Part shown: one piece after another, positions 21,964 to 51,083 of the stretch
Numbering within the stretch: the first letter of the stretch is position 1
Layout of the letters: every line of letters starts with the position of its first letter
Source: Fervidobacterium pennivorans
GTDB taxonomy: Bacteria; Thermotogota; Thermotogae; Thermotogales; Fervidobacteriaceae
Length of the DNA: 64,000 bases
Assembly (NCBI RefSeq): GCF_001644665.1
Contig: NZ_CP011393.1
Location: 1,634,001 to 1,698,000, forward strand
Direction of reading: 5' to 3'
Translations under genes and position numbers: made by a program
The notes under the pieces: generated by a model
What the model saw: only the letters and a program-made list of their open reading frames with translations
What the model was told of the DNA's origin: nothing
Databases searched by the model: none

Positions 21964-23022
21964 GATAGTGTTAACTTGTAGTGGTGAAAGAGTGTAAGTG
22001 TGAAAGAATGAGATTGATATTACCATTGTGCGTTTTCCAAAGATTCTTCACTACACAAAATACTTGAATATATTTCGCTAAATTCTTCGTATTCTTCAGC
22101 CCTCGCTTGAGTCGGAAAAAGTCTTTCAACAATGAAAACTTAGATTCACATTGATTGTTTTTACCGAGCGGTACCACTACGTGATTGATATTTCTGAACA
22201 ACAGCTTTACTGCACTTTCATATGCACCAAGTCCATCAGTAATAAGTTCAATGTTTCTAGGTTTTGAATTACCAAAGAACTTCTCGAGCAATACTTTGAC
22301 TTGTCCCATATCACGATACTTTGAGACATGCCAACAAAGAATTAAGTTAGTTTCGTGATCAACTAATAGCCAAACATAGTACTTTTGTTCTTTGAACACA
22401 AGAACAGTTTCATCAGCATGAACTGAGAAAACATTTTCGATGGTAAATGTTGGAAAAAGTACAGAGAATAAAGTACACAATTTAATAACCCATTTATATA
22501 TGGTGACATGAGATACTTTGATATTAAGAGAATGAGCAAGAGAGCGATAAGACATATTGTGTTTCATATACAAAACGAAAGCTTTTAAGATGAAAAATAG
22601 AGGAAAACGGAAATATTTAAATTTCTCAGGAATAAGGGTGACTGGTTCGGGGAGGTTAAAAGGTACTCTATCTTTGGTACGACAAGCTCTACAACGGAAG
22701 ACAACGAAAGAGCGATGGACTTTGTAAATTTGCATAGATTTACCACAAGAAGTGCATTTGGGATAAGGGAAAGAGAAGTTTTTGCGTTTGTGAGAATGGG
22801 AGAGTTTGAAAGAATGATGGCAGAGTTTGCAAAGGAATTGTTGGTTACCGTATTTGTCATGACCGTTTTTGTATAAGCTGGTGGAACCGCATTTTGGACA
22901 AGAGAGCGTTGAGTTGTTCATATCGGGATACCTCCTTTGTCGAGAGTTGGTTGGGGGGTGTCCCCTCTTTATAAGGATAATGCGGTTTTTGGAAAGTTTC
23001 AATACTTTTAGTTAACATTATC
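21964..23022 (-). mobile_element. Insertion sequence copy A, complete, 1059 bp
   Basis: A complete element with imperfect terminal inverted repeats: GATAATGTTAACT at the transposase-promoter end (23022 inward) and GATAGTGTTAACT at the other end (21964 inward). It is flanked by the 8-bp direct repeat AAAATCAT. One transposase gene fills it. A second copy of exactly the same length is at 50025. Eight-bp duplications and the catalytic domain suggest an IS6/IS240-like group, but the D-to-E spacing (29 residues) is shorter than usual there, so the family is tentative. Confidence 0.93.
21971..22921 (-). CDS. DDE transposase of IS copy A
   Basis: A 316-residue transposase. Two zinc-ribbon pairs lie at the N-terminus (C8/C11 with C31/C34; C56/C59 with C77/C80), followed by a helix-turn-helix (about 124-145) and a DDE catalytic domain with D170 (HADETVL), D229 (ITDGLGAY) and E259 (CESKFSLL). 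The ATG at 22921 has AAGGAGGT before it; an upstream in-frame reading would cross the element's own promoter (TTGAAA-17-TATCCT). It looks intact. It differs from copy B at a dozen or so positions, mainly in the second zinc ribbon. Confidence 0.9.
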   Translation of the reverse strand: MNNSTLSCPKCGSTSLYKNGHDKYGNQQFLCKLCHHSFKLSHSHKRKNFSFPYPKCTSCGKSMQIYKVHRSFVVFRCRACRTKDRVPFNLPEPVTLIPEKFKYFRFPLFFILKAFVLYMKHNMSYRSLAHSLNIKVSHVTIYKWVIKLCTLFSVLFPTFTIENVFSVHADETVLVFKEQKYYVWLLVDHETNLILCWHVSKYRDMGQVKVLLEKFFGNSKPRNIELITDGLGAYESAVKLLFRNINHVVVPLGKNNQCESKFSLLKDFFRLKRGLKNTKNLAKYIQVFCVVKNLWKTHNGNINLILSHLHSFTTTS

Positions 23023-23046
23023 AAAATCATAAAGGGAGGTCTTTAT

Positions 23047-23457
23047 ATGAAGAGATACACTGAATACCTTTGGTTTAACACCAGTAAGAAGAGAGCACTC
23101 GTCCACATAACTGATAAAATTCAGGAAATTGTTGAAAAAAGTGGCATCAAAGAAGGTTTCTGCTTGGTTTCTGCAATGCATATCACCGCTGGGATAATTG
23201 TGAACGACAACGAGTCAGGCTTACACCAAGACATCTGGGAATGGCTCGAAAAACTTGCACCAGCGGGCAATTACAAACATCACTGGACTGGTGAAACGAA
23301 CGGAGATGCTCATCTGAAGAGAATACTAACCCACCATCAAGTCATCCTGCCTGTAACAAATGGAAAGTTAGACTTAGGTCCTTGGGAAGAGATATTCTAT
23401 GCAGAATACGATGGTCAACGAAGAAAAAGGGTCGTCGTCAAGGTGATTGGTGAATAA
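23047..23457 (+). CDS. UPF0047 (YjbQ) family protein, second type
   Basis: A 136-residue YjbQ/UPF0047 protein, clearly divergent from the one at 13773: [30 protein letters not shown] and [16 protein letters not shown] replace the corresponding motifs, but the histidines are kept. It belongs to another branch of the family. GGGAGGT lies seven bases before the ATG. IS copy A ends only 24 bases upstream, between this gene and its likely native promoter. The gene leads an operon with a sigma-54-type activator and an MFS transporter. Confidence 0.88.
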
Positions 23458-23479
23458 TAAATGCGATGGAGATGAGCGA

Positions 23480-25183
23480 ATGGAAAGGATTTACAAGATA
23501 GTCCTTGATTCAATAATTGAAGGTGTAATCATCGTTGATAGAGATGCAAGAGTGCTTTACATCAACAAAAACGCGCAAAAACTTTTGAACTTACCTTCAG
23601 ACATAATCGGCAAAAAAGTTGACGAGGTCGTTAAGAACACACGTCTACATATCGTTGTCCAAACTGGTATCCCTGAGATTGACCAAGTCCAACATACGGA
23701 GAACGCGGTGATTATCACTTCGAGAATACCCATCAAAGATGAAAATGGAAAAATCGTAGGCGCGGTTGCAGTCTTTAGGGATATAACAAGTATCAGGAAA
23801 CTTGCTGAAGAGATAACAAATTTGAAAGAAATAGAAGCCCAGCTCAAGGCGATAATTGATTCTACCAACGATGCAATAAGTGTCGCCGACGAAAATGGAA
23901 TAGTAAGGTTGGTCAACAAAGCGTACACAAAAATTACAGGATATTCACCAGAGGATGTTATCGGTAAGCCTGCCACAGTCGATATAGCGGAAGGCGAGAG
24001 CATACATATGCTCATCGCCAAACTCAGACAACCAATATACAACGCAAGGTTAAAGGTTGGTCCTGCAAAGAAAGAAGTAATCGTGAACGCTACTCCATTA
24101 TTTGTAAAAGGGAAGTTCAAAGGTAGTGTTGCGGTTGTCCATGACGTTTCAGAGATATTGAAACTAACAAACGAACTTGAAGAAGTGAAAAGGTTAATCC
24201 GTCATATGCGTGCACAATATACATTTGATGATATCATAGGAGATAGTAAATTAATTCAAATCGCGAAAGAGCAAGCAAAGAAAGTTGCCCAAACACCGGC
24301 AACAGTGCTTCTAAGGGGAGAGAGTGGAACAGGTAAAGAGCTTTTTGCACATGCGATTCACAACGCAAGTCCGAGAAGAAACAAGCCATTTGTTAGTGTG
24401 AACTGTGCAGCTATACCAGAAAGCATTTTGGAATCAGAGCTCTTCGGGTACGAAGAAGGTTCGTTTACAGGGGCACTACATGGTGGTAAAAAGGGACTTG
24501 TAGAAGAAGCCGATGGTGGTACGTTGTTCCTCGATGAAGTTGGAAAATTGCCTTTGTCTTTGCAACCCAAATTGCTGAGATTTATCGAAACGAAAGAATA
24601 TGTCCCTGTTGGTGGAAGAAACGTGAAAAAGGTTGATGTGAGAATCATTGCTGCAACGAATATGGAACTCGAGAAAATGGTAAGAAACGGGGACTTCTTA
24701 CCCGATTTGTATTTCAGACTCAATGTGTTCCCAATATATCTACCTTCCCTAAAAGATAGAAAAGAAGATATTCCCAAGCTTGCTGTCCATATTGTGAAAA
24801 AGCTCAATCAACAATACGGAAGAATGGTAGAAGGCATAAGCCCAGCGGTGATAAAGTACATCGTTTCAAAAGATTGGCCCGGGAATGTGAGAGAACTTGA
24901 AAACTTCCTTGGCAGGGTTATGATAAACATGGGACCTGAGGAAAGATATATCGAACTCAAACATCTTCCAGAAGATAGCGGCTTAAAGGTTGAAAAGAAA
25001 GAGGAAGAGTTTTCGGACATAGGTGAAAAGTCTCTCAAAGACTTAGTTGAGGAATACGAAAAAAAGATTATCCTTTCGGCATTAAAACAAACAGGTGGAG
25101 ATAAAGTAAAAGCCGCAAAGATGCTTGATATAAGTATTAGGACGTTGTATTACAAAATGGAGCGGTATGGAATAGATGGTTAG
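23480..25183 (+). CDS. Sigma-54-type transcriptional activator with two PAS domains
   Basis: A 567-residue enhancer-binding-protein-like regulator: PAS 1 (about 5-110), PAS 2 (about 120-230), an AAA+ domain (about 250-485) with Walker A GESGTGKE, NCAAIPESILESELFG, Walker B GGTLFLDEVG, and a C-terminal Fis-type helix-turn-helix (VKAAKMLDISIRTLYYKMERYG). The sigma-54 contact loop reads GSFTGA instead of GAFTGA. The ATG at 23480 is preceded by GGAGATGAG. PAS domains suggest it senses a small ligand or redox state. The targets are unknown; the neighbouring UPF0047 and MFS genes are candidates. Activity would need RpoN, which is not in the window. Confidence 0.9.
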   Translation: MERIYKIVLDSIIEGVIIVDRDARVLYINKNAQKLLNLPSDIIGKKVDEVVKNTRLHIVVQTGIPEIDQVQHTENAVIITSRIPIKDENGKIVGAVAVFRDITSIRKLAEEITNLKEIEAQLKAIIDSTNDAISVADENGIVRLVNKAYTKITGYSPEDVIGKPATVDIAEGESIHMLIAKLRQPIYNARLKVGPAKKEVIVNATPLFVKGKFKGSVAVVHDVSEILKLTNELEEVKRLIRHMRAQYTFDDIIGDSKLIQIAKEQAKKVAQTPATVLLRGESGTGKELFAHAIHNASPRRNKPFVSVNCAAIPESILESELFGYEEGSFTGALHGGKKGLVEEADGGTLFLDEVGKLPLSLQPKLLRFIETKEYVPVGGRNVKKVDVRIIAATNMELEKMVRNGDFLPDLYFRLNVFPIYLPSLKDRKEDIPKLAVHIVKKLNQQYGRMVEGISPAVIKYIVSKDWPGNVRELENFLGRVMINMGPEERYIELKHLPEDSGLKVEKKEEEFSDIGEKSLKDLVEEYEKKIILSALKQTGGDKVKAAKMLDISIRTLYYKMERYGIDG

Positions 25184-25198
25184 AAAGGAGTGAGGAAT

Positions 25199-26290
25199 TT
25201 GGAGAATCTTTATCCCATGCTCGTCATATTCTCTTATTCACTTGTCTTAAACTCAATGCCGCCGTTGTTAAGTTCGTTTAGGGAACTGTTTAACATTTCG
25301 ATAGCGTTATCTTCTTTCTTGCCATTCTTTTCTTTGGCAGGTACTGTAATTTCCAACATCTTCACAGGTATTTTTCTCAACAAACTGGGCATCAAACGAG
25401 CGTTGCTTACAGGTTACTTTTTAACAATTGTAGGAGCTCTTATAGTTGCTTTCTCCGGTAACTATTTACTTTCAATCCTTGGACTCTTTATATTCGGACT
25501 TTCAACTGGATTTGGATTCACAGGTTCGACAACACTTCTTTCGCAAGCTAAAAATCCTAATTTTGGATTTTACCATGGAGCTTATGGAATTGGAGGTATA
25601 CTTGCGCCGTTTTGTATATCCTGGGCGACGAAAAATTTTGGTGATTTCAGAAACGTTTATCTAATGTATGCGATAATGTTTCTGCTGTTGACTTTATACA
25701 CAGTTATAAAAACTTTCCCTATACTTCAAAATTCGCTAGGTGGGTTCTCGTTAAAAGGCATATCAAATGCGTTCAGGGATACACATTTTTCAACATTCTT
25801 GTTACTTCTCATACTGTACTCCTCTGTTGAAATAGGTGTGATAACGTGGGCTGGGATAGTTATGAAAAATGTCATCATTTCTTCTTATGTTGCTTACGCG
25901 CTCTTTTGGCTCGCATTTACACTCAGTAGGTTCTTTACAGATTTCTTAGAAAAGGTTATGTCATCACTTTTAAGAACCAATGCGATAATTTTGGGGTTTA
26001 CCGTGTTTCTCTTCTTTTGGTTAAGAAATCCTCTCTTCTTTGCTCTTTCTGGTTTTTTCTTCGGTCCACTTTTTCCTTACATGCAAAAGAACGCACTTGG
26101 CAAGATAAAGAAAGAACATCTCACATTATTCAATGGTGCAACGTATGCCTTCACCTCGCTTGGAGGTAGTGTTGTTAGCATGCTCATGGGAATGGTAATA
26201 GAACGAAACATCTTTTTGGCTTTGATTGTGCCGTTAGTCATCCTTACTTCGATGGAATTGATAAGTTTAAAAACAGGAAAAATAAAGTGA
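25199..26290 (+). CDS. MFS transporter
   Basis: A 363-residue major-facilitator permease with about 11-12 hydrophobic helices. LNKLGIKRALLTGY between helices 2 and 3 is the position of the MFS loop motif, and FGFTGSTTLLSQ / GFYHGAYGIGG resemble the sugar-transporter-like FucP/YfkF branch. The substrate is unknown. I prefer the TTG at 25199, eight bases after AAGGAG; a GTG at 25190 touches that site. It is last in the operon before a bidirectional terminator and may be controlled by the preceding activator. Confidence 0.85.
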   Translation: MENLYPMLVIFSYSLVLNSMPPLLSSFRELFNISIALSSFLPFFSLAGTVISNIFTGIFLNKLGIKRALLTGYFLTIVGALIVAFSGNYLLSILGLFIFGLSTGFGFTGSTTLLSQAKNPNFGFYHGAYGIGGILAPFCISWATKNFGDFRNVYLMYAIMFLLLTLYTVIKTFPILQNSLGGFSLKGISNAFRDTHFSTFLLLLILYSSVEIGVITWAGIVMKNVIISSYVAYALFWLAFTLSRFFTDFLEKVMSSLLRTNAIILGFTVFLFFWLRNPLFFALSGFFFGPLFPYMQKNALGKIKKEHLTLFNGATYAFTSLGGSVVSMLMGMVIERNIFLALIVPLVILTSMELISLKTGKIK

Positions 26291-26296
26291 AAAGTA

Positions 26297-26331
26297 AAAA
26301 ACCCCCAGGCAAGAACCTGGGGGCTTTTGTT
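26297..26331. terminator. Bidirectional terminator
   Basis: CCCCCAGG (26302-26309) and CCTGGGGG (26316-26323), with A-run before and T-run after. It ends the MFS operon and, on the other strand, lies past the convergent lipoprotein gene. Confidence 0.85.
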
Positions 26332-26364
26332 AACTTAACGATTTCCTCGCACGTTTATGTGAAC

Positions 26365-26982
26365 TTATTTCACATCAATTTTTTCAAATCTTTCAATCCT
26401 TGGTGCGGAAGTTGCAGCGATAGGTAGCTTAACATAGATTTCATCTGGTGACCTGTTCAGCCCTTTTTCACCTACGCCTTTTCCAATACCAATGAGCCAG
26501 CCACCTGCCAGAAGCGTTTGATTTTCGTTGAGATAAACGTACGTATAACTCGAGAGCCTATCTTTGAGCCAAATTTGAAAGTAAGGTGTATCTGCATAGC
26601 CGTATGCGTAGAACATGAGTTCACCATCCGCTGTTCTGAAGATTCCATAACCTTTTGAAGCCTTCTTTTCGAGAACGATGTTAACTTCTTTACCGTCGAA
26701 CTCCACTGATTTCACAACGAACAATTGGTCAATTGGCTCTTTGAACGAATACTTTTCCACAGCGCTTATCTTTGCTTCGATGTAAACGCCATCTTTATCG
26801 GCTTTCAACGGGAAATTATTAATTGTTCCGTCAACAAATAGCTTATTTCCGTAAGGGTCAAATATATTAACAGGAGTTTTTACCTTTGGCGATGAAGAGT
26901 TTGACCCTGGATTGAATATATTACAACTTGAAATTACAACCAACAAGGAAAGCACACCTATCAAAATTATGGTTTTCTTCAT
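26365..26982 (-). CDS. Lipoprotein of unknown function
   Basis: A 205-residue protein with a type II signal peptide: basic start, hydrophobic core and lipobox ISSC at about residue 20, followed by a Ser/Pro/Asn-rich tether. The mature part is mostly beta-type and matches no family I recognise. The ATG has GAGGTG six bases upstream; an in-frame GTG at 26991 is within that site. It follows the beta-propeller gene by 29 bases and is probably cotranscribed, so it may anchor or assist that protein. Confidence 0.7.
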   Translation of the reverse strand: MKKTIILIGVLSLLVVISSCNIFNPGSNSSSPKVKTPVNIFDPYGNKLFVDGTINNFPLKADKDGVYIEAKISAVEKYSFKEPIDQLFVVKSVEFDGKEVNIVLEKKASKGYGIFRTADGELMFYAYGYADTPYFQIWLKDRLSSYTYVYLNENQTLLAGGWLIGIGKGVGEKGLNRSPDEIYVKLPIAATSAPRIERFEKIDVK

Positions 26983-27011
26983 ACTTATCACCTCTCTTTA
27001 CTGATGTGTGG

Positions 27012-29696
27012 TTACCGTACCCGTTCAGAATCAGGAACAGCAAAGCCGAACATACTTGCGAATATGTAGAGATCTTCTACATTTACAGCGTTTGTATTAT
27101 CTGTTAGATAACCTGCTCTATAACTGTTGTAATTTGGATATGGTTGGCGAAAATCTTCACGAGGACCTATATTATAAATGATATCTGTTCCACTTACAGT
27201 AGTTCCAAGCTTGAGAACAAACTTATTCCAGTCGTTTATATCTACATCAAAATCTTCGTCGAAGTCACCAACAACATACAAGAATTTGTTTGTTCTAAAG
27301 ACTTTTTTAGCTCCCAATTGGTCAGGATCAACTTCTTGACCAAGCATTTGCGCGTAACCATACAGGTCAAAGAAATTCATGTAATAACTATTATCTACAC
27401 CTGTAAACCGGACCCTTTCTGGGAACATTAAGTTAAGGGCTATTGTTGCAACCCTTGTAGTACTTGTTAACGGTCTTTCGAAACTTCTTAACACTATTTG
27501 TAAAAGGTTTGACGTCACAGAACTCAAATTTCCCAATTTAGAAACGTCTGGTGCGTATTCTTCCGAAACGATACCATCTATAGTTATACCTTGCAACGTT
27601 TTCAGTTTTATCGTTTCCGCTACAGAATTCGTTGCTGCATCGAGGAACAAGTAAGCGCGAGTTTTTCCATAGGCGAATTCTGGCAGCAATAGTGTTACAG
27701 TTGCGTTAAGCTCGGCATAGAAGATTTCAAGATATGCAGGACCAGAAAGAGGTAGTGTTACACTGTCTTGATCATAATACACTTTTTTCGTGTATCCGGT
27801 TGATTCACTCGGATTCCAGGTGTAGACGTTCCACTTATATGCGAAGAAAGTCTTACCAGCGTGTGTAGGACTTGCGTTTATTGTTTTAATAGCTGTATTA
27901 GGATTATTTCTAAAAGAGTTGTAATCGAAGAAACCATAATCGATTTGCGTTGCTTCGGCGTTAGATTGTAGGGGGTATTTGTGATACAAATAGAACGTAT
28001 AAGTAGCGTCGGTAAAAATTTCCAGTCTTCTGTCGTTGTAGCGGAACGTTATTGTAGCTGGATTATCGCCCTCACTTCCTTCGTAATCATTTGGACCTGT
28101 TTTCCAGAATCTGAATCTAAATCTTGAATCTGTTGAAGGCGGAGTACCACCGCTAGGAGTGATATATCTTCCTATCAGAAGTTTTGCATCAGTTGGTGTT
28201 GCGAAGTTGACTATAAGTTTGTATGAACCAGGTATTCCCTCTATTACCTTAGCAAGGTTTCTTTCGTTTGTTCTGTAATTTCTGTAAGTACTTACAAGAT
28301 TATTATTGGCATCAACGACTGTTGCATCGTAAAGCAAACCATAATCAGTTGTAGAACCAAACAACGCATCAGAAAGTTCTCTTCCGTAGTAACCTTCTTT
28401 TGCTATCAAGTAAATCCTGGTTCTGAACGCGTTTGCAGTCGAATCGATAAAACCTGTGTTATTTATGTTCTGACCATACTTTGCCCAAATTCCGTATGGA
28501 CCTCTTGCATTGAACTGCCATGCGTAAACGGTGCCGTTATTTGTAGCTGTCACGAAATAGTAGTTATCACCGTATAGTGCACCAAGTGGTGCAACGTTTA
28601 CTGCAGCACTTAGCGGGAAGGTGCTTGGAACAGTGTATTCCCATACCTTTGTAAACACACCAGTAAGGGCATCAAACGACAGAATCGTTATCTTTCCAGC
28701 CGCAGTTGTAGATGATGTAACAATAAGGTAAGTAACACCATCAACACCTTTAACAATAGCAGGTGTTGTTGTTATCTGCTGACCTATTGTGTATTCTCCA
28801 AGTTTTACTAAATTGCTGTTCAAAGCAACAACCTTGCCGTTATCTCCGAATATGTATATAATCCCGTCGCCATCAATGAGTGGTCCGGATGAGTTTGCAG
28901 AAGACAAAAATCTTGCGTGGTTTTCACTACCAGATGGGTCGATTTTGTATATAATTCCTTCCATGTTGAGAGCATACAAGAACCCTGATTCATCCATTGC
29001 CATAGGCGTTGTGAAATCGCCTCCGAGTTCTATCTTCAAGGAAGCAAACATCGAGGTCGTATCTACCGTGTAAAACTTACCATTTTGTGTAAGAACGTAC
29101 AATTCGGTTTTTGATGGGCTCAGAACAGGAGGAACTTTGATAGGTCCAGCAAGGTTTGCAGTGTCTGTAGTAGTAAAATCATTACTCGAAGTACTATACG
29201 TTGTTTTGTACAATTTCCCGCTCATTGTTCCGAAGAAAATAATTATGTTACTACCATCTAAATACGCATTCACACCGTAAGCTGCGTTATCAATACCTGT
29301 TGATTTTACTACTACTCCGCCTGAACCAGAATTAAATTTATGTACAACTAGTTTATTTTGTACTGTTCCTTGCGCTGTGGTATATATAATGTAATAGTTA
29401 TTACTACCGGCACTGATATATGCCGGTGGTGCGACGATGTTTACGACTCCGCTTGGCTGACCTTTTGTGATAACTGCTCCTGCCATCGTAATTTCATAGA
29501 GTGCACCGTCTTTTGCAAGGAAAAGTAAGTTACCGCCGTTTTTCGCTATGATTGCTGGACCAGATTTGTCGGGGATATTTTTGGTGAATATAGTGTCTGC
29601 CCATAGTCCAGAAATGTTAAGCGCCGAAAAACCAACTTCAACTATTGCGGAAACTAAAAACAACAAAGTTAACCAAAATATTATTCGAGTTTTCAT
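27012..29696 (-). CDS. Large exported beta-propeller protein with dockerin-like C-terminus
   Basis: An 894-residue secreted protein. After a signal peptide (about 1-25), residues about 30-400 show repeated blades of the PQQ/quinoprotein type (GNLLFLAKDGALYEI, GFLYALNMEGIIYKI, GIIYIFGDNGKVVAL, TNNGTVYAWQ). A beta-rich middle follows. Near the end is DFDEDFDVDINDWNKF, an EF-hand-like calcium loop in dockerin style, and about 50 residues later VNVEDLYIFASMFG, like the second dockerin repeat. The substrate or partner is unknown. AAGGAGGTG precedes the ATG; an IS derivative ends 24 bases upstream and has probably separated the gene from the upstream lipoprotein gene. Confidence 0.75.
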   Translation of the reverse strand: MKTRIIFWLTLLFLVSAIVEVGFSALNISGLWADTIFTKNIPDKSGPAIIAKNGGNLLFLAKDGALYEITMAGAVITKGQPSGVVNIVAPPAYISAGSNNYYIIYTTAQGTVQNKLVVHKFNSGSGGVVVKSTGIDNAAYGVNAYLDGSNIIIFFGTMSGKLYKTTYSTSSNDFTTTDTANLAGPIKVPPVLSPSKTELYVLTQNGKFYTVDTTSMFASLKIELGGDFTTPMAMDESGFLYALNMEGIIYKIDPSGSENHARFLSSANSSGPLIDGDGIIYIFGDNGKVVALNSNLVKLGEYTIGQQITTTPAIVKGVDGVTYLIVTSSTTAAGKITILSFDALTGVFTKVWEYTVPSTFPLSAAVNVAPLGALYGDNYYFVTATNNGTVYAWQFNARGPYGIWAKYGQNINNTGFIDSTANAFRTRIYLIAKEGYYGRELSDALFGSTTDYGLLYDATVVDANNNLVSTYRNYRTNERNLAKVIEGIPGSYKLIVNFATPTDAKLLIGRYITPSGGTPPSTDSRFRFRFWKTGPNDYEGSEGDNPATITFRYNDRRLEIFTDATYTFYLYHKYPLQSNAEATQIDYGFFDYNSFRNNPNTAIKTINASPTHAGKTFFAYKWNVYTWNPSESTGYTKKVYYDQDSVTLPLSGPAYLEIFYAELNATVTLLLPEFAYGKTRAYLFLDAATNSVAETIKLKTLQGITIDGIVSEEYAPDVSKLGNLSSVTSNLLQIVLRSFERPLTSTTRVATIALNLMFPERVRFTGVDNSYYMNFFDLYGYAQMLGQEVDPDQLGAKKVFRTNKFLYVVGDFDEDFDVDINDWNKFVLKLGTTVSGTDIIYNIGPREDFRQPYPNYNSYRAGYLTDNTNAVNVEDLYIFASMFGFAVPDSERVR

Positions 29697-29712
29697 AACA
29701 ACACCTCCTTGT

Positions 29713-29720
29713 GTACTTTA
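29713..29720. repeat. 8-bp target duplication, left of the deleted IS composite
   Basis: GTACTTTA, repeated exactly at 30140-30147. The two copies bracket the whole of 29721-30139, so both deleted pieces share one insertion site. Confidence 0.9.
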
Positions 29721-29984
29721 GATAATGTTAACTAAAAGTATTGAAACTTTCCAAAAACCGCATTATCCTTTAAATAGGGACCACCCCCCAACCAACTCTT
29801 AACAAAAGCAGGTTTCCCAAAATGCATAACCCAATGCTTTCTTGCCTAAGAAGAATACGAAGAATTTAGTGATATATATTCAAAGGTTTTTGTGTAGTGA
29901 AGAATCCTTGGAAAATGCATAATGGCAATATCAATCGCATTCTTTTACGATTATACTCTTTCATCACTACAAGTTAACAGTATC
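29721..29984 (+). mobile_element. Internally deleted IS derivative D1, 264 bp
   Basis: It keeps the left end (GATAATGTTAACTAAAAG), about 110 bases of 5' sequence with a degraded transposase start, then jumps to the last part of the transposase gene and the right end (...GTTAACAGTATC). It encodes no transposase. It could only move with help from a full copy. It is more diverged from copies A and B than they are from each other. Confidence 0.88.
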
Positions 29985-30139
29985 AACGCAAAAACTTCCC
30001 TTTCCCTTATCCCAAATGCACTTCTTGTGGTAAGTCTAAGGGCTTTGTGTAGTGAAGAATCTTTGGAAAACGCACAATGGTAATATCAATCTCATTCTTT
30101 CACACTTACACTCTTTCATCACTACAATTTAACACTATC
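29985..30139 (+). mobile_element. Truncated IS derivative D2, sharing a deletion junction with 51092-51480
   Basis: It starts inside the transposase gene (zinc-ribbon region), runs to about 30035 and then joins the end of the transposase gene through the same junction (TTCTTGTGRTARGTCTAAGG) as the derivative at 51092. It ends with the normal right end TTAACACTATC. The left 240 or so bases are missing and D1 is attached instead. Confidence 0.85.
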
Positions 30140-30319
30140 GTACTTTAAAGAAGCGTTCAAACTTTTCGGTCGTAATAGAGTACCTACAAAAAATCCGACA
30201 ACAATACCACGGACACACCTAGTTCCCCGGTTCTCCCATAGCAAGTAAAGCACTTTCTTACTGCTAACCACCTCCTTGTGTCTTTTTTCCTCATGTTGAG
30301 TAGACACAGCAACAATCAT
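30122..30319 (-). CDS. Small ORF of doubtful status, its end supplied by the IS
   Basis: A 65-codon ORF whose ATG overlaps the lipoprotein stop (ATGA), typical of coupling. It contains a hydrophobic stretch (RGIVVGFFVGTLL) and an internal AAGGAGGTG that resembles the ribosome site of the next gene. Its stop codon lies in the IS right end; before insertion the frame would have run into the next gene's start. It may be a small gene, a broken signal-peptide gene, or chance. No family is recognised. Confidence 0.25.
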   Translation of the reverse strand: MIVAVSTQHEEKRHKEVVSSKKVLYLLWENRGTRCVRGIVVGFFVGTLLRPKSLNASLKYDSVKL

Positions 30320-31953: not shown

Positions 31954-32145
31954 ATGCACACCTCCACTCTATGTTTTTTTATTTTTCTTCTGGAAAGTAG
32001 ATTTCTCCATCTTTTTATTCTGTCTGAGGCGTGCTTCTTCCTAAATCACGTTTGCAGTTTTGCTCGCACTGTTATATATATTCAGACCTCCGATTACAGA
32101 ATTTCGTTTAACATTTTATGAAGAAATCCTTTGGAAAAAACCTTC
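31954..32145. other. Intergenic region between divergent units
   Basis: No gene seen. A TATATATA stretch near 32080 on the minus strand could be a -10 region for the lipoprotein gene, but no good -35 accompanies it. Confidence 0.25.
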
Positions 32146-32174
32146 TTGATTTTTTGCCACTTGAATGGTATAAT
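32146..32174 (+). promoter_or_regulatory. Promoter of tRNA-Ala
   Basis: TTGATT (32146-32151), a 17-base spacer and TATAAT (32169-32174), with a TGG extension before the -10 box. Confidence 0.8.
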
Positions 32175-32213
32175 TCTGATGCGTAATGCAGTTGTGAAGG
32201 CAAATGTACGCGT

Positions 32214-32290: not shown

Positions 32291-32304
32291 AAACTAATCC
32301 TCTT

Positions 32305-32338
32305 GAGCCCTGGAAATAAACCAGGGCTTTTCTTTTTT
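32305..32338 (+). terminator. Terminator of tRNA-Ala
   Basis: GCCCTGG (32307-32313), loop AAATAAA, CCAGGGC (32321-32327), then TTTTCTTTTTT. Confidence 0.85.
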
Positions 32339-41078: not shown

Positions 41079-41706
41079 TTTATTCTCTAAAGTGACTGAA
41101 AGAACAACAAAAAAAGACATGGACAAAGAAGCCTTTTTGAGATTGCTTATTACACAGCTTAAAAACCAAGACCCCCTTGAACCAATGAAAGATAGGGATT
41201 TCATAGCCCAAATGTCTCAACTTTCATCCCTCGAACAGATAATGAACATGAGTAAATCGGTCCAACAATTCGTAGATACTGCTGCTCAGCTTTATAGAAC
41301 ACAAGCAGTTTCCATGATAGGAAAGACTGCTGTTGTCAAGACAAACACAATCACAGTGTCAAACGGGGTTCCGGAAACAAAGGTCTTCAAATTGGACGCT
41401 CCAGCAACGATAGTTGTTAGAATTTTCGACCAAAACGGTAAGCTTATAAAAGAACAAAAGCTAGGAAACGTTGATGCTGGAATGCAACTGATTGCATGGG
41501 ATGGGAAAGGTGAGAACGGAATAAAGGTAAAGGATGGAAAATACACTTTTAAAATACTTAAGCTGACAGGTAACGGAGATTACGAAGAAATTCCAAGTGT
41601 TGAAAGTGGCGTGGTTTCAGGTGTCCAGTTTGATGGAAGTAGAATCAACGTTGTTGTAAATAGCAAGATATACGAAATTTCAGAAATATCAGAAATCTAT
41701 GCGTAG
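41050..41706 (+). CDS. flgD: Flagellar hook-cap protein FlgD
   Basis: A 218-residue scaffolding protein needed to polymerise the hook. The N-terminal signature is clear: DKEAFLRLLITQLKNQDPLEPMKDRDFIAQMSQLSSLEQIMNM (about 18-60, many of these invariant in FlgD). A FLN/tudor-like C-terminal region follows with IRIFDQNGKLIKE-type beta strands and WDGKGENGIKVKDGKYTF. The ATG has GAGGTG seven bases upstream inside the end of fliK, hence the 29-base overlap. Confidence 0.95.
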   Translation: MIMNVNATANLFSKVTERTTKKDMDKEAFLRLLITQLKNQDPLEPMKDRDFIAQMSQLSSLEQIMNMSKSVQQFVDTAAQLYRTQAVSMIGKTAVVKTNTITVSNGVPETKVFKLDAPATIVVRIFDQNGKLIKEQKLGNVDAGMQLIAWDGKGENGIKVKDGKYTFKILKLTGNGDYEEIPSVESGVVSGVQFDGSRINVVVNSKIYEISEISEIYA

Positions 41707-41718
41707 GGGTGAGGATAT

Positions 41719-44034: not shown

Positions 44035-44072
44035 TCGGATAAAATAATCTAGAACCCATAGGGGTGAAAAAA

Positions 44073-44276
44073 GTGATAAAACTGACAGGACTGAACGGGA
44101 AAGAGTTCTACCTGAACGCTGAATACATAGAAAAAATTGAAGCCAATCCGGACACCACTATAACCTTATACAATGGGAAAAAGTACATAGTGCTTGAACC
44201 TGTCCAAGAAGTCGTTAATCGTGTTATGGAATACAAGAAGAAGATATTCTTACCCCCGATGGTAGGTGAGGAATAA
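44073..44276 (+). CDS. flbD: FlbD-family protein
   Basis: A 67-residue protein of the FlbD family, small proteins encoded between flgE and motA in many flagellated bacteria; their role is poorly defined. It shows IKLTGLNGKEFYLN at the start and VLEPVQEVVNRVMEYKKKIF at the end. I chose the GTG at 44073, six bases after GGGGTG, because it gives the usual family start; an in-frame GTG at 44064 would lie inside that ribosome site. Its stop overlaps the motA ATG (TAATG). Confidence 0.85.
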   Translation: MIKLTGLNGKEFYLNAEYIEKIEANPDTTITLYNGKKYIVLEPVQEVVNRVMEYKKKIFLPPMVGEE

Positions 44277-45064
44277 TGGATATTACCGTTTTACTCGGCG
44301 TTATTTTAGGTTTTGGTATGATGATATATGGTATCATAAGTGGTTCTGGTGATTTTGCTACATTCATCAACATACCATCTGTTATCATTACTGTTGGTGG
44401 TGCTATTTCCTCTGCTATAACTGCAAACAAAAAGAACGTGGTTTTTGGTATTGTTAAGGTTATAATGAACGCTATCAAAGAACCAAAGATTGATTATGTT
44501 GGAACTCTGAGAACGCTTGTGTCGTTTTCAGAAAAGGCAAGAAGAGAAGGGCTACTATCGCTTGAAGCGAATTTGGAAGAAATTCAAGATCCGTTCTTAA
44601 AAAAAGCTGTGCAATTGGTTGTTGATGGAACAGAGCCGGAAGTTTTGAGGTCCATGATGGAGATAGAAATTGAGATGGCAACAGCGGAAATGATGGACCA
44701 GAAGGGATTCTTTGACTCACTTGGAACCTTTGGTCCAGCGTTCGGAATGATAGGAACTCTTGTCGGGCTTATTCAGATGCTTAAAAGTTTGAACAACCCA
44801 GAGACATTAGGTCCCTCTATGGCAGTTGCACTTATAACCACATTGTACGGGTCTATTCTTGCTAACATCGTAGGTCTTCCAGTAGCCGAAAAAATAGCAA
44901 AACGTGCGGCAGATTTAGAGCTTGCGAGAAGAATGATTCTGGAAGGTGTGTTGTCTATTCAGGCTGGAGAAAATCCAAGGGTACTTGAGGAAAAACTGAA
45001 ATCCTATCTACCAAGCGCTGAGAAAGCTAAGTACGAAGCACAGGTTCAGGGAGCTGGTGCCTAA
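44276..45064 (+). CDS. motA: Flagellar motor stator protein MotA
   Basis: A 262-residue membrane protein forming the ring of the stator ion channel. Four hydrophobic helices (about 2-20, 30-50, 148-168, 180-200) and the large cytoplasmic loop are in place. GTFGPAFGMIGTLVGLIQML and LGPSMAVALITTLYGSILANIVGLPVAEKI correspond to the conserved channel helices. The start overlaps flbD and the stop overlaps motB (TAATG), so stator subunits are made together. Confidence 0.95.
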   Translation: MDITVLLGVILGFGMMIYGIISGSGDFATFINIPSVIITVGGAISSAITANKKNVVFGIVKVIMNAIKEPKIDYVGTLRTLVSFSEKARREGLLSLEANLEEIQDPFLKKAVQLVVDGTEPEVLRSMMEIEIEMATAEMMDQKGFFDSLGTFGPAFGMIGTLVGLIQMLKSLNNPETLGPSMAVALITTLYGSILANIVGLPVAEKIAKRAADLELARRMILEGVLSIQAGENPRVLEEKLKSYLPSAEKAKYEAQVQGAGA

Positions 45065-45936
45065 TGGCAAAGAAGGAAAAGTGTGTCTGTCCATCGGTAC
45101 CGGAATGGTTAAATACTTACGGAGATATGGTTACCTTGCTCCTTACATTCTTCGTTTTATTGTTCTCAATGTCGAGCTTGAGTCCTGGAAAATTCCAACA
45201 GATAGTAGTTGGGATGAGCTTGGCTTTGAGTGGAAATCCACCAAGTGTCTTAACCGGTGGGCAGACTATGAGCGAAGAAGCGCTTATATCTTCAAAGCCT
45301 GGTGTTTATCAGGAACTGTTACGAATATCCGAGGAATACCAGGGTAAGGTAACAATAGAAGAACGAGACGAAGGAACACTTATCACACTGACTAATTTTA
45401 AGATTTTCGAAACAGGAAGCGCAAGACTAACAGCTGAAGCCAAAGAAATAATTGAGAAACTGGGGGCTATAATTTTAGAGCATACATCGAACATAATTGA
45501 GGTTAGAGGATATGCTGATGACAGACCAACAACTCCAGACTCTATATATCCATCGAACTGGCACCTTAGTAGTGCTCGGGCATCTTCGGTAGTGAATTTC
45601 ATGCTAACGGAGTTGAAGCAAAAAAGGTATGCGTTGAGGTATGCAGAGATAAGGTCTGGATTATTCGATATCGATTATTTCTATTCGCCTGATAGGTTCG
45701 TACCGATAGGAAAAGGAGATGTTGATGTAAACAAAGAACTGAAATCCATAAAGGCGAATTACGATTACGACATGTCGAAACTACAAAGTGACTACGAAAG
45801 TGGTAAAATATCTATAGAAGAGTACCAAAGACAGGGTGCAGAATTTACCCAGAAATACTATAGAGACGTTGAACAAACACGTGCAAAATATAGGAAAATA
45901 GAAATCGTAATAAAGAGAGAAACTAAGGGATACTGA
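45064..45936 (+). CDS. motB: Flagellar motor stator protein MotB
   Basis: A 290-residue stator subunit that anchors MotA to peptidoglycan. One N-terminal helix contains EWLNTYGDMVTLLLTFFVLLFSMSS; Asp21 is the ion-binding residue. Residues about 110-270 form an OmpA-like domain (FETGSARLTAEAKEIIEKLG, IEVRGYADDRPT, NWHLSSARASSVVNFML). Between the last strands it carries an inserted helical, charged segment (about residues 225-270, KSIKANYDYDMSKLQSDYESG). Overlaps motA by one base. Confidence 0.93.
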   Translation: MAKKEKCVCPSVPEWLNTYGDMVTLLLTFFVLLFSMSSLSPGKFQQIVVGMSLALSGNPPSVLTGGQTMSEEALISSKPGVYQELLRISEEYQGKVTIEERDEGTLITLTNFKIFETGSARLTAEAKEIIEKLGAIILEHTSNIIEVRGYADDRPTTPDSIYPSNWHLSSARASSVVNFMLTELKQKRYALRYAEIRSGLFDIDYFYSPDRFVPIGKGDVDVNKELKSIKANYDYDMSKLQSDYESGKISIEEYQRQGAEFTQKYYRDVEQTRAKYRKIEIVIKRETKGY

Positions 45937-45965
45937 TAAATCGAGAAAGTTAAGGAGGGCGAAGT

Positions 45966-46490
45966 ATGCCTGAAGAAGTTGAACAACAGCAAGAGCAACC
46001 TAAGAAGAAAGGTAACTTGATGGACTTAATAAAGATGTTAGTAATTCCGTTAGTTATTTCACTTGTTGTAAGTTTGGTTGTTTTCTTCATGCTTGGTTCG
46101 AATAAGCAACCAAGCCAGCCTAAGGAAGAAGAAGCAACTGCTGCGGCGCCGGTCCAGATAAAGGCAGTTGTTATTGCTCAAGGTAAGTATCAAACCTTCA
46201 TGCTTAAAGGTGGAAGAGATGTTGCGGTTGTCGATTCTTTAACCTTGCTTGTCGGTAGTGAACCTTGCAGAGCAGCTGTAGCTGAAAAAAACGATGAAAT
46301 AATGGACGCACTTGCTACGATATTCTTGAGCAAAGAGCGGTTTGCCCTCGTAACTCCAGCGGGTTTAGACTTATTAAAAAAGCAAATCAGGGAAGCTGTG
46401 AATGAGATTACCGGATTTACTGGCGAGAAAGAAAAACTTGGGGTTTTAAATGTTTATATATACATAAAAGCGATAAGTACTGTCCAGTAA
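45966..46490 (+). CDS. fliL: Flagellar basal body-associated protein FliL
   Basis: A 174-residue FliL protein, which surrounds and stabilises the stator at the basal body. It has an acidic/Gln-rich start, one membrane helix (about 24-44), a short Pro/Glu-rich linker, and a periplasmic domain ending in the FliL-typical TPAGLDLLKKQIREAVNEI...VYIYIKAISTVQ. AGGAGGGCG precedes the ATG. Gene order motAB-fliL-fliM-fliY is standard. Confidence 0.88.
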   Translation: MPEEVEQQQEQPKKKGNLMDLIKMLVIPLVISLVVSLVVFFMLGSNKQPSQPKEEEATAAAPVQIKAVVIAQGKYQTFMLKGGRDVAVVDSLTLLVGSEPCRAAVAEKNDEIMDALATIFLSKERFALVTPAGLDLLKKQIREAVNEITGFTGEKEKLGVLNVYIYIKAISTVQ

Positions 46491-46526
46491 CAATATCACA
46501 ATCCCTTTCATGGGAGGTTGTTAGTT

Positions 46527-47522
46527 TTGCCGGATGTACTGAGCCAAGAAGAAATAGACCGATTGTTGGCGGCACTTTCGCAGGGAGAAGTTAATATAGA
46601 GGAAGTGAAAAAAGAGGGCGAAGAGAAAAAGGTTCGCACATATGATTTTTTGCGCCCTCAAAAATTTTCGAAAGAACAAATTCGAACTGTTCAGATGATA
46701 CATGAAAACTTTGCACGAAGTGTATCTACGTATTTATCAGGTAAATTGAGATCCTTCACCTCAGTAAACGTTGTTGGTATAGACCAACTTACCTATGATG
46801 AATACATGAAATCCATAGGTAACCCGTCGTTCATAACCATATTCACGGCAAGAGAATTGGTAGGTAGCGCAATATTCAACATGAGCTTAGAAATATTTTA
46901 TGGGGTTTTGGATGTTCTACTTGGTGGACCTGGTGAACCTGGTGATGTCAAAAGAATTCCAACAGAAATCGAAATGGGGATAATTAAGAAAGAGGTTGTA
47001 AATTTACTTACCGCACTTTCTCAAGCTTGGATGTCTGTTCACCCGTTTATCCCTGTTGTTGAATCCACAGAAACAAACCCACAATTCGTCCAAATAGTCC
47101 CAAGTAGCGAGATGGTTTTAGCAATCACATTTTTTGTGAGTTTCGGAAAAGTGGAGGGTTACATGAGCCTTTGCTGGCCATCTTCTGTTATAGAGCCGAT
47201 AGGAGAAAAGCTCACAACACAGAGTTGGTTCAAAGTCAAGCAAAAAGAAATAACGGAAGAGCATATCGAGAAGCTCAAAGAAAACTTGCAAAGAACAAAG
47301 ATAGATGTTATCGCAATTATTGGAGAAACTGAGCTAACCTTAGGTGAAATTTTAACACTTGAGGTAGGCGACGTGATAAGATTGAAAGAACACTACGACG
47401 AACCGATAAGAGTAGAAGTAAACGGTCGTACAAAATTCCTAGGTAAACCTGGTCAGTACAAAGGGAACTATGCTGTAAAGATTACCGAAGTGATAGAAGA
47501 ACCTAAAGAGGAAGGTGAATAG
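46527..47522 (+). CDS. fliM: Flagellar motor switch protein FliM
   Basis: A 331-residue rotor switch subunit. The N-terminal CheY-binding motif LSQEEIDRLLAAL is at residues about 4-16; YDFLRPQKFSKEQIRTVQMIHENFARSVSTYLS marks the start of the middle domain, and the C-terminal SpoA domain (about 250-325) has TELTLGEILTLEVGDVIRL. I prefer the TTG at 46527, nine bases after GGGAGG, since it gives the usual short lead before LSQEEID; a TTG at 46518 is adjacent to the site. Confidence 0.95.
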   Translation: MPDVLSQEEIDRLLAALSQGEVNIEEVKKEGEEKKVRTYDFLRPQKFSKEQIRTVQMIHENFARSVSTYLSGKLRSFTSVNVVGIDQLTYDEYMKSIGNPSFITIFTARELVGSAIFNMSLEIFYGVLDVLLGGPGEPGDVKRIPTEIEMGIIKKEVVNLLTALSQAWMSVHPFIPVVESTETNPQFVQIVPSSEMVLAITFFVSFGKVEGYMSLCWPSSVIEPIGEKLTTQSWFKVKQKEITEEHIEKLKENLQRTKIDVIAIIGETELTLGEILTLEVGDVIRLKEHYDEPIRVEVNGRTKFLGKPGQYKGNYAVKITEVIEEPKEEGE

Positions 47523-47524
47523 GC

Positions 47525-48625
47525 ATGATAGCTGATGACTTCCTAAGCCAAGAAGAATTGGATGCTTTACTTAAACAAGTTGTGCAAGATGAGGAACTTT
47601 CAGATATTGAAATATCAATGGTCGGCGAAGTTGGAAATATAATTCTTGGTGCAGGTGCAACTGCACTGTCTAACATTCTGGGTAGAAAAGTAGACATTTC
47701 AACACCAGAAGTTGAAGTTATGACACTTCGCGAACTAAGAAAAGGTATAAGCGGCGAGAAGGTTTGTGTAACGATACACTTTGAAGGCGAAGTTGAGGGC
47801 TTAAATGCGCTGGTTATTGAAAAACAGTTAGCAGCTGAACTCGCTGATATAATGATGGGCGGTCTTGGTAAGCCAGAGAGTGATGAACTTGACGAGTTCA
47901 AACTCAGTGCCGTTGGTGAAGCCATGAACCAGATGATGGGTTCGGCTGCTACTTCACTTTCCGATATGATAAAAAAACCCGTTAGTATTACTCCACCAAC
48001 GACGGAGATTCTGAACTTCGATGACGAGAGCGTGAAATTCCCACCTATAGGTGATGAAAACGACAAAGTTGCAAAAGCAACTTTTACAATGACTATCGAA
48101 GGCTTACAACCTGCGAAGTTCTTTTTGGCAATGCCTATTTCATTTGTCAAAAAACTATATGAATTAATATTCGGCACACCGACTGTAGAGCAAAAGCAAG
48201 CAAGTGCACGAGCTCCAGAGTCAGCTCAAACTTCCGCTTCAAAACCTACGAGTTTTGTTCCACCTACTCCAAAGAGAGAAGAAAAGCAAACGGTTGCAGC
48301 AAGACCTGTCCAATTTGAAGATTTCGGCAGAACCCAACAACCATCCGAAAAACCACAAATTTTGGATGAAAGACTCCAGTTGCTATTTGATGTGCCGTTA
48401 AATGTTACCGTAGAACTCGGACGTACGAAGCTCACTTTGAAAGAAATTATGGAACTTGGCGTGGGGTCTCTAATAGAACTGGATAAACTTACGGGAGAAC
48501 CTGTTGATATTTACGTAAACAACAAATTGATTGCACGTGGAGAAGTTGTTGTCATCGATGAAAATTTTGGTGTGCGTATTACAGAGATAGTGAATCCTAA
48601 GGAAAGGCTTTACAGCTTAAAATAA
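47525..48625 (+). CDS. fliY: Flagellar motor switch phosphatase FliY (FliN-type)
   Basis: A 366-residue switch protein combining CheC-like and FliN modules. The first residues DFLSQEELDALLKQV form a CheY-P-docking motif like that of FliM. The middle has two CheC-type helices with the E-x-x-N phosphatase pattern (GEVGNIILGAGATALS and VGEAMNQMMGSAATSLS), indicating dephosphorylation of CheY-P. After a Pro/Gln/Ala-rich linker (about 225-275) comes the SpoA/FliN domain (LNVTVELGRTKLTLKEIMELGVGSLIELD). GAAGGTG precedes the ATG, two bases after the fliM stop. It ends the flagellar operon. Confidence 0.93.
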   Translation: MIADDFLSQEELDALLKQVVQDEELSDIEISMVGEVGNIILGAGATALSNILGRKVDISTPEVEVMTLRELRKGISGEKVCVTIHFEGEVEGLNALVIEKQLAAELADIMMGGLGKPESDELDEFKLSAVGEAMNQMMGSAATSLSDMIKKPVSITPPTTEILNFDDESVKFPPIGDENDKVAKATFTMTIEGLQPAKFFLAMPISFVKKLYELIFGTPTVEQKQASARAPESAQTSASKPTSFVPPTPKREEKQTVAARPVQFEDFGRTQQPSEKPQILDERLQLLFDVPLNVTVELGRTKLTLKEIMELGVGSLIELDKLTGEPVDIYVNNKLIARGEVVVIDENFGVRITEIVNPKERLYSLK

Positions 48626-48645
48626 GAACATTAAGCCCATCTAAC

Positions 48646-48676
48646 AAAAGAAGCCCCTTCCGGGGCTTCTTTTCTT
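48646..48676. terminator. Bidirectional terminator of flagellar operon and bglA
   Basis: AAAAGAAGCCCC (48646-48657), loop TTCC, GGGGCTTCTTTT (48662-48673). A/T flanks serve both the flagellar operon and the convergent bglA gene, whose stop is at 48685. Confidence 0.9.
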
Positions 48677-48684
48677 TCGAACTT

Positions 48685-50001
48685 TTAAGATTTTAGAAAT
48701 TCCTTCAACCACAACGCTGAATCTTTCAATATCCTTTTTTGCGTATTGTAATCTACGTAGATTATACCGAAACGTTTTGAGTATCCGTACGCCCATTCGA
48801 AGTTGTCCATCAAAGACCAAATGAAGTAACCTTTCAAATCAACACCTGCATTGATTGCTTCAAGTGCTTTTTCAAAGTGCTTTTCCAAATATTCAATTCG
48901 GTAATTATCATGAACTCTTCCGTTTTCCAATTTATCAGGTCCAGCCATCCCGTTCTCTGTGATATAAAGTGGTAGTTTATATCTTTCCTTCAGATAGACC
49001 AGCATATCAAATAATCCCTGCGGGTAGATTTCCCATCCCATCTCCGTTTTGGGAAGGTCTCCCTGAACATACGAAAATCCAAGAGGATTGTTCATATCAA
49101 AAACAACAAGTGTTCTTGTGTAATAATTCACACCAAAGAAGTCTATAGGAGTCGAAATAATATTCATATCGCTATCGGGAACTTGCAACCCTTTTTCCGT
49201 ATAAAGTGCAACTGCTTCTTCGGGATATTTTCCGAAAACAACAGGGTCATGGAACCATGCATTAACAAACTTATCAACAAGACTTGCGACCAAGAAACTT
49301 TCGGGTTTTGCATCGCCCGGTTCTATTTTCATCACAACGTTGGTTAAGCCAACTTTTCCATCTTTTACTTCTTCCCTGAACGCCTGAACGGCATGTCCAT
49401 GTGCCCTTAACAGGTTGTGTGCCGCGATTATCGCTTCTTGTAAATTTTGATGACCCGGGGCATGCTCTCCCGTGTAATAACCCAAGAAAGAAGAACACCA
49501 TGGTTCGTTCAGTGTAATCCAATGTTTCACACGATCACCGAGTTCGTTGAACATAAACGTTGCGTATGCTCTGAAATAAAGCGCTATATCTGGGTTAAGC
49601 CATCCACCTTTTTCATAAAGTGCGTAGGGTAAGTCCCAGTGATAGAGTGTTACGAATGGTATGATATCATTCTTCAAAAGCTCATCAACGAGTCTGTTGT
49701 AGAAATCCACACCCTTTTGGTTGATGTTCTTCCCATCTGGCATAATTCTGGGCCAGGAGATAGAGAATCTGTAAGCGTCCAACCCTATTCCTTTCATCAG
49801 CTGGATATCTTCCTTGTATCGGTGGTAATGGTCACACGCAACGTCTCCTGTGTCACCGTTCAAGGTTTTGCCAGGCGTGTGTGAAAAGACATCCCAAATT
49901 GATGGTCCTCTGCCATCTTCGTTTGCTGCACCTTCAATCTGGTATGCTGCTGTAGCCGTTCCGAAGATAAAATCTTTTGGAAAATCGGACCTTCTTATCA
50001 T
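48685..50001 (-). CDS. bglA: GH1 family beta-glucosidase
   Basis: A 438-residue cytoplasmic glycoside hydrolase of family 1, which cleaves beta-linked glucosides such as cellobiose. The acid/base glutamate is in TLNEPW and the nucleophile glutamate in YITENG; DFIFGTATAAYQIEG at the N-terminus and GYFIWSLMDNFEWAYGY near the C-terminus bind sugar. It lacks a signal peptide. GGGGGTG precedes the ATG. IS copy B ends 23 bases upstream. Before that insertion the gene probably overlapped the Gx-transporter gene (ATGA) and belonged to the mgtE-to-Gx operon; it now depends on the IS region for transcription. Confidence 0.95.
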   Translation of the reverse strand: MIRRSDFPKDFIFGTATAAYQIEGAANEDGRGPSIWDVFSHTPGKTLNGDTGDVACDHYHRYKEDIQLMKGIGLDAYRFSISWPRIMPDGKNINQKGVDFYNRLVDELLKNDIIPFVTLYHWDLPYALYEKGGWLNPDIALYFRAYATFMFNELGDRVKHWITLNEPWCSSFLGYYTGEHAPGHQNLQEAIIAAHNLLRAHGHAVQAFREEVKDGKVGLTNVVMKIEPGDAKPESFLVASLVDKFVNAWFHDPVVFGKYPEEAVALYTEKGLQVPDSDMNIISTPIDFFGVNYYTRTLVVFDMNNPLGFSYVQGDLPKTEMGWEIYPQGLFDMLVYLKERYKLPLYITENGMAGPDKLENGRVHDNYRIEYLEKHFEKALEAINAGVDLKGYFIWSLMDNFEWAYGYSKRFGIIYVDYNTQKRILKDSALWLKEFLKS

Positions 50002-50016
50002 TTTTTCACCCCCTGG

Positions 50017-50024
50017 TTTAGTTC
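50017..50024. repeat. 8-bp target duplication, left of IS copy B
   Basis: TTTAGTTC, repeated exactly at 51084-51091 between copy B and the next derivative. A 7-base remnant TTAGTTC is at 51502-51508. Confidence 0.92.
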
Positions 50025-51083
50025 GATAATGTTAACTAAAAGTATTGAAACTTTCCAAAAACCGCATTATCCTTATAAAGAGGGGACACCCCCCAACCAA
50101 CTCTCGACAAAGGAGGTATCCCGATATGAACAACTCAACACTCTCTTGTCCAAAATGCGGTTCCACCAGCCTATACAAAAACGGTCACGACAAATACGGT
50201 AACCAACAATTCCTTTGCAAACTCTGCCATCATTCCTTCAAACTTTCCCATTCTCAAAAACGCAAAAACTTTCCTTTCCCATATCCCAAATGCTCTTCTT
50301 GTGGTAAAGCTATGGAAATTCACAAAGTCCGTCGCTCTTTCGTTGTCTTCCGTTGTAGAGCTTGTCGTACCAAAGATAGAGTACCTTTTAACCTCCCCGA
50401 ACCAGTCACCCTTATTCCTGAGAAATTTAAATATTTCCGCTTCCCTATCTACTTCATCTTAAAAGCTTTCGTTTTGTATATGAAACACAATATGTCTTAT
50501 CGCTCTCTTGCTCATTCTCTTAATATCAAAGTATCTCATGTCACCATATACAAATGGGTTATTAGATTGTGTACTTTATTCTCTGTACTTTTCCCAACAT
50601 TTACCATCGAAAATGTTTTCTCAGTTCATGCTGATGAAACTGTTCTTGTGTTCAAAGAACAAAAGTACTATGTTTGGCTATTAGTCGATCATGAAACTAA
50701 CTTTATCCTTTGTTGGCATGTCTCAAAGTACCGTGATATGGGACAAGTCAAAGTATTGCTCGAGAAGTTCTTTGGTAATTTAGAACCTAAAAGCATTGAA
50801 CTTATTACTGATGGACTTGGTGCATATGAAAGTGCAGTAAAGCTGTTGTTCAGAAATATCAATCACGTAGTGGTACCGCTCGGTAAAAACAATCAATGTG
50901 AATCTAAGTTTTCATTGTTGAAAGACTTTTTCCGACTCAAGCGAGGGCTGAAGAATACGAAGAATTTAGCAAAATACATTCAAGGCTTTTGTGTAGTGAA
51001 GAATCTTTGGAAAACACACAATGGCAATATCAATTGCATTCTTTCACACTTACACTCTTTCATCACTACAAGTTAACACTATC
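50025..51083 (+). mobile_element. Insertion sequence copy B, complete, 1059 bp
   Basis: Same length and ends as copy A (GATAATGTTAACT ... AGTTAACACTATC), flanked by TTTAGTTC on both sides. Its left end faces bglA. It is followed directly, after the shared target repeat, by the deleted derivative at 51092, so two related elements sit head to tail in one target site. Confidence 0.94.
50126..51076 (+). CDS. DDE transposase of IS copy B
   Basis: A 316-residue transposase equivalent to that of copy A, with the same N-terminal zinc-ribbon cysteines and catalytic residues D170, D229 and E259. AAGGAGGTATCCCGAT precedes the ATG. The frame is intact. Differences from copy A cluster at residues about 44-71. 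It could supply transposase in trans to the deleted derivatives, since all keep both ends or the right end. Confidence 0.92.
   Translation: MNNSTLSCPKCGSTSLYKNGHDKYGNQQFLCKLCHHSFKLSHSQKRKNFPFPYPKCSSCGKAMEIHKVRRSFVVFRCRACRTKDRVPFNLPEPVTLIPEKFKYFRFPIYFILKAFVLYMKHNMSYRSLAHSLNIKVSHVTIYKWVIRLCTLFSVLFPTFTIENVFSVHADETVLVFKEQKYYVWLLVDHETNFILCWHVSKYRDMGQVKVLLEKFFGNLEPKSIELITDGLGAYESAVKLLFRNINHVVVPLGKNNQCESKFSLLKDFFRLKRGLKNTKNLAKYIQGFCVVKNLWKTHNGNINCILSHLHSFITTS

Follow-up and report, generated by a model that had tools for sequence, protein, structure and literature searches.

What could bring three insertions of one insertion sequence (IS), at three separate genes, to the same orientation and to within one base of the same distance from a start codon? 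The question is raised by the window, i.e. the whole stretch of 64,000 nucleotides of the Fervidobacterium pennivorans genome that was analyzed, for which a preliminary description had proposed either targeting of a promoter/ribosome-site complex or selection for a promoter that fires outward from the element's left end. Our analysis, which is based on sequence comparison, points to a more specific answer, namely that, very probably, a zinc-ribbon transposase complex of the IS6 type (ISCpe7-like) reads the G-run of the Shine-Dalgarno sequence as DNA and joins the element at a fixed distance from it, while selection purges most other insertions.

The three insertions and their element

Copy A (21964..23022, minus strand) is a full-length IS of 1059 bp, and its transposase ORF, counted from the ATG, occupies 21971..22921 on the minus strand. 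Its left end, at 23022, is directed toward a UPF0047-like gene, a 136-aa ORF starting with the ATG at 23047, and 24 bases lie between them. The 8-bp target duplication AAAATCAT is found at 21956..21963 on the right-end side and at 23023..23030 on the left-end side (no strand is assigned to any of the duplications), and the target G-run, which is the Shine-Dalgarno sequence GGGAGG, at 23034..23039 (plus strand). Copy B, also full-length (50025..51083, plus strand), encodes a transposase of 316 aa from the ATG (50126..51076, plus strand). Its left end at 50025 is turned toward bglA (ATG at 50001) with 23 bases between, including the left-end duplication TTTAGTTC (50017..50024) and the target GGGGG (50009..50013, minus strand). 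The third insertion (29721..30139, plus strand; flanking duplication GTACTTTA) has its left end at 29721, 24 bases from the ATG of a beta-propeller gene at 29696, with the target GGAGG at 29704..29708 (minus strand). The positions of the three left ends and start codons, as well as the direction of the three genes away from their elements, had been correctly described, and in each case the interval is made up of the 8-bp duplication, approximately 3–5 nt, the Shine-Dalgarno sequence and a spacer. The label "deleted composite" for the third insertion has to be replaced: it is a miniature inverted-repeat element (MITE) in which a 264-bp MITE is joined to the right 155 bp of a 389-bp MITE, and a second genome copy of the fusion (1903949–1904366) carries its own, different duplication, making it a mobile unit in itself.

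The IS ends with GATAATGTTAACT... and, on the opposite strand, GATAGTGTTAACT..., and perfect 8-bp duplications were found at 28 of the 45 left ends in the genome. The transposase, as seen in copy B, comprises two CxxC...CxxC zinc ribbons, a helix-turn-helix region and a DDE domain of the IS6/IS240 type (PF13610, DDE_Tnp_IS240; 155 bits, cut-off 27), for which five relatives also score above the cut-off. The eight cysteines of the two ribbons are invariant, and Zn_ribbon_InsA is matched with 29.6 bits (cut-off 26.1). The NCBIfam equivalog of IS6 transposases, NF033587, gives 96.3 bits, below its cut-off of 125, and a single-sequence structure model of the protein has a pLDDT of 43.6, too low to be informative. 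According to the accessible text of two reviews, ISCpe7-like elements are the zinc-finger IS6 elements of Clostridia, termed clade h (Varani et al., PMC7986276) or clade VII (Harmer and Hall, PMC6807381), with an N-terminal zinc finger containing several CxxC motifs, 340–350 aa and 1226–1349 bp. The element shares with this clade the DDE_Tnp_IS240 domain, the N-terminal zinc-finger extension, the transposase length (an open frame of 343 aa) and the 8-bp duplication, but it is shorter, at 1059 bp; the relative from Cetobacterium measures 1271 bp. Fervidobacterium copies have already been termed ISCpe7-like and counted in a transposase survey (PMC5398504). One of the two reviews (PMC7986276/PMC6807381) questions the placing of the zinc-finger clade within IS6. 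IS26 and other IS6 elements without a zinc ribbon have a related catalytic domain and an 8-bp duplication as well.

Orientation and distance in the genome and beyond

The complete 2.06-Mb genome that contains the window holds 45 exact, intact left ends of the IS and its MITEs. The inventory comprises about 22 full copies, 13 MITEs of approximately 389 bp, MITEs of approximately 264 and 340 bp, the two 419-bp composite copies and fragments. Three left ends lying beside the right end of another copy were left out, giving a set of 42 non-nested sites. Counting outward from the left end, bases 0–7 are the duplication and a GGRGG motif follows at +12 to +16, outside the duplication. At least four G in +11 to +16 were found on the left side of 41 of the 42 sites (background 1.5%) and on the right side of none, so the orientation is fixed. 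The junction of the left end thus precedes GGRGG, on the coding strand of the gene, by the 8 bp of the duplication and a further 3–5 nt or so; the Shine-Dalgarno sequence and the start codon are left intact, and the transposase gene is directed away from the target gene. A start triplet lies 22–26 nt from the left end at 39 of the 42 sites, the distance being 24 nt in 22, 23 nt in 11 and 25 nt in 5 of them. An independently called gene start was present at that place in 34/42, whereas insertion at random into non-coding DNA would give 1.5% (binomial probability approximately 1e-52 for at least 33/42). The pattern is thus far stronger genome-wide than had been claimed from the three loci, and the orientation is not random. 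At approximately 19 of the 42 sites a co-directional upstream gene overlaps the target gene or ends within about 60 nt, and few copies sit inside genes.

The same geometry was observed in four Thermotogae transposase groups, with 96%, 63%, 58% and 32–35% identity. It is found for the 96%-identical copies in other Fervidobacterium genomes, for the 63% group, for the 58% group (a start-like triplet at 23–26 in 19/19 sites), for one copy from another genus, and for the 32–35%-identical element of another genus, the ends of which (TAGACTGTTC...) are unrelated. After removal of shared sites, and with viral contig L269 not included, 143 distinct sites were available; sites within one genus are not fully independent, and gene starts outside annotated records are ORF-based. 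A start triplet at 22–26 was present at 126 of them (background for any triplet 24%), and at least four G in +11 to +16 at 129. A few sites have no good G-run, namely position 1552117 of the source genome, L099, L138 and L182. Orthologous genes in different species have been struck independently at the same spot by different elements. Outside Thermotogota the evidence consists of five sites. In Cetobacterium somerae (Fusobacteriota), an element with 30% identity shows the geometry in 3/3 cases, one of them relative to an annotated CDS start, a relative on a gut viral contig (L222) has the same geometry with the target GGGGG, and a relative on L269 has an ATG at offset 23 and is flanked by a duplication of its own. 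A search of phage records for relatives found none, and a plasmid search found one zinc-ribbon relative, in Cetobacterium. As regards the start codons, TTG or GTG is used at 15 of the 19 sites of the 58% group in genome G003 (L159–L177), while ATG dominates in the other groups.

Two controls were negative. Eight ISL3 copies in one genome of the same genus showed the geometry in 0/8 cases, with no common orientation or distance, and a classical IS6 element of a Rhizobium plasmid (234 aa, without a zinc ribbon) had a G-run at the corresponding place at 0/16 sites, in which it differs from the element studied here. Thus, neither general host selection nor the general IS6 catalytic domain yields the pattern.

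In addition, single nucleotides have been used repeatedly. The bglA site has undergone three rounds of insertion with one shared 8-bp duplication: behind copy B, the duplication TTTAGTTC at 51084..51091 is common to copy B and to a 389-bp MITE in the same orientation (51092..51480, plus strand), an earlier insertion, followed by the right-end remnant of a third and older element (51489..51501, plus strand). Other tandems sharing an 8-bp duplication are 545139/546206, L103 and L145. Such head-to-tail arrays with a single shared duplication arise because the duplication and the Shine-Dalgarno sequence are restored beside each new copy. In L103 the copy beside the Shine-Dalgarno sequence is intact and the outer one is decayed, with ten stops, as would be expected if the newest copy always adjoins the Shine-Dalgarno sequence. 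Upstream of bglA, a gene for a membrane protein (51497–52096) has had its last residues cut off by the insertion.

The recognized feature and competing explanations

The empty bglA site of the closest relative (...GAACTAAATCAGGGGGTGGAAAAATGA) contains a single copy of the sequence that is duplicated in the window. It is located at the very end of the coding sequence of the upstream gene, within its last codons, and the stop of this gene overlaps the bglA start (ATGA); in genome G004 the overlap of the membrane protein gene with bglA is ATGA. Since this empty site lies inside coding sequence, promoters are not the target, and the intra-operon sites also rule them out. Therefore, of the promoter/ribosome-site complex proposed earlier, the ribosome-site part is upheld genome-wide and across species, and the promoter part is withdrawn.

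At approximately 14 sites the G-run is present but no start codon follows. They include a terminator-like hairpin (L086), the element's own leader, read on its reverse strand (L187 and L197), and the interiors of ORFs (among the in-ORF insertions are those in ORFs of 457, 147 and 120 aa, L088, L123 and L116, respectively). The G-run is also in place where an insertion lies 9 nt ahead of a tRNA-Gly gene, the acceptor stem of which starts with GCGGGTG (L173). The sites without a start codon bear on the proposal that the transposase, or a host factor bound at initiation regions, recognizes the translation start as a unit, i.e. the Shine-Dalgarno sequence plus start codon or a transcription-translation complex, which we consider unlikely. 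It would account for the very tight start offset (24 in 74/128 sites, sd 0.95), for the over-representation of ribosome-binding-site G-runs relative to other non-coding G-runs, and for a spacing in targets that varies less than that of a limited, unbiased comparison set (sd 1.20 vs 2.25, n = 26, with partly noisy start calls), but insertion at G-runs with no start codon is not what it predicts. Its widest form, in which the machinery reads the whole translation start or a nucleic-acid/protein complex at nascent initiation regions across several phyla, which would couple the transposon to the initiation signals themselves, seems quite unlikely. Nevertheless, start-codon placement is at least as tight as that of the G-run over all sites (sd 0.95 vs 1.18), so that the start codon may contribute as well. 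Given also that ribosome-binding sites are a minority of the good motif matches (see below), genuine ribosome-binding sites may be favored to some degree over and above the effects of the G-run and of purging.

According to another explanation, insertion near gene starts is more or less random, and the host keeps those copies that provide an outward promoter at the right distance or spare the gene. The left ends of the 96%, 63% and 58% groups do contain a weak promoter-like sequence, and the scarcity of copies inside genes is in line with such selection. However, where insertions lie at a terminator, by a tRNA gene, inside an ORF or in the leader of the element itself, selection of this kind requires neither a position exact to 1–3 nt nor one fixed orientation; an element with unrelated ends shows equal geometry, the ISL3 copies of the same genus lack a similar pattern, and tandem re-insertions strike the identical nucleotide. 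This makes the explanation very improbable, and selection for an outward promoter, as originally suggested, is not needed for the geometry, given the element with unrelated ends and the non-gene insertions that keep the orientation toward the G-run. Hardly credible, finally, is an RNA guide, such as the C-run of the transposase mRNA leader, pairing with the target G-run. The leader C-run is present in the Thermotogae groups and in Cetobacterium, but the gut relative has no C6 run and yet its target is GGGGG. Moreover, the run is better explained by a hairpin in the leader of the transposase gene (50083..50122, plus strand, in copy B; also L141, L161 and L179), in which the element's own Shine-Dalgarno sequence pairs with the conserved C-run upstream. 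Its outer stem covaries between IS groups (GGGGA/TCCC to GTGGA/TCCAC), and with this hairpin the guide-RNA reading is no longer needed. The pairing suggests translational self-restraint of the transposase.

Regarding the preferred reading, i.e. recognition of the G-run by the transposase complex, the following sequence of events may be envisaged. The complex would read the G-run as double-stranded DNA, and the run would lie about one helical turn from the center of the 8-bp staggered cut, by which both position and orientation could be fixed. The candidate reader is the pair of N-terminal zinc ribbons, probably located at the left end and absent from the control IS6; the left end would be told from the right end by subterminal sequence. 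Ribosome-binding sites account for 22–38% of the good G-run matches in the genome. Insertions there would spare the reading frame and survive, while those at G-runs inside genes would mostly be purged, and in this way a preference for G-runs could turn into a nearly exclusive Shine-Dalgarno pattern. We thus attribute the near-monopoly of ribosome-binding sites among the survivors to the purging of in-gene insertions. Because every new copy has a restored target beside it, one and the same nucleotide could be struck repeatedly and tandem arrays would form.

Related systems and rearranged copies

The target preferences of most IS elements are regarded as weak or short, and the Shine-Dalgarno sequence is a signal ahead of many genes in most bacteria. 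Tn7, too, keeps to one orientation and a fixed spacing relative to a sequence that is recognized, and lands in a safe place, but it relies on a dedicated target protein and on the conserved end of one gene, whereas here there is one transposase gene and a signal ahead of most genes. The yeast retrotransposons Ty1 and Ty3 likewise avoid damage by using a landing pad directly upstream of genes; they bind transcription factors and land upstream of tRNA genes, while direct reading of a DNA motif is most likely in the present case. A whole group of elements in at least two named phyla would use the Shine-Dalgarno sequence as a safe, ever-available landing pad. Such targeting would explain a high copy number with little gene damage, would make insertion points predictable and would cut genes off from their promoters uniformly. 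It may also offer a tool for DNA insertion just upstream of ribosome-binding sites.

In the published literature, one of the two reviews (PMC7986276/PMC6807381) states, in its available portion, that there are no experimental data for the longer zinc-finger elements, and the accessible text of both gives no target preference for the clade. Similarly, no target-site analysis was found in the available text of the Fervidobacterium transposase survey (PMC5398504). A search by title or abstract, with subscription journals largely outside its coverage, gave no precedent for insertion at Shine-Dalgarno or ribosome-binding sites.

Two further observations concern individual copies. The target duplications of two oppositely oriented copies, at 411004 and 1709078 of the source genome, have been swapped (GTTTATTA/GCAGTATT), which is the signature of a large inversion between these copies; a similar swap of duplications is shown by the Cetobacterium copies L219 and L220. 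Finally, a single-copy transposase-like frame, 34% identical and with one stop, lies at 685850–686806 of the source genome, and frames at similar places in G003 and G004 possibly reflect a conserved location.
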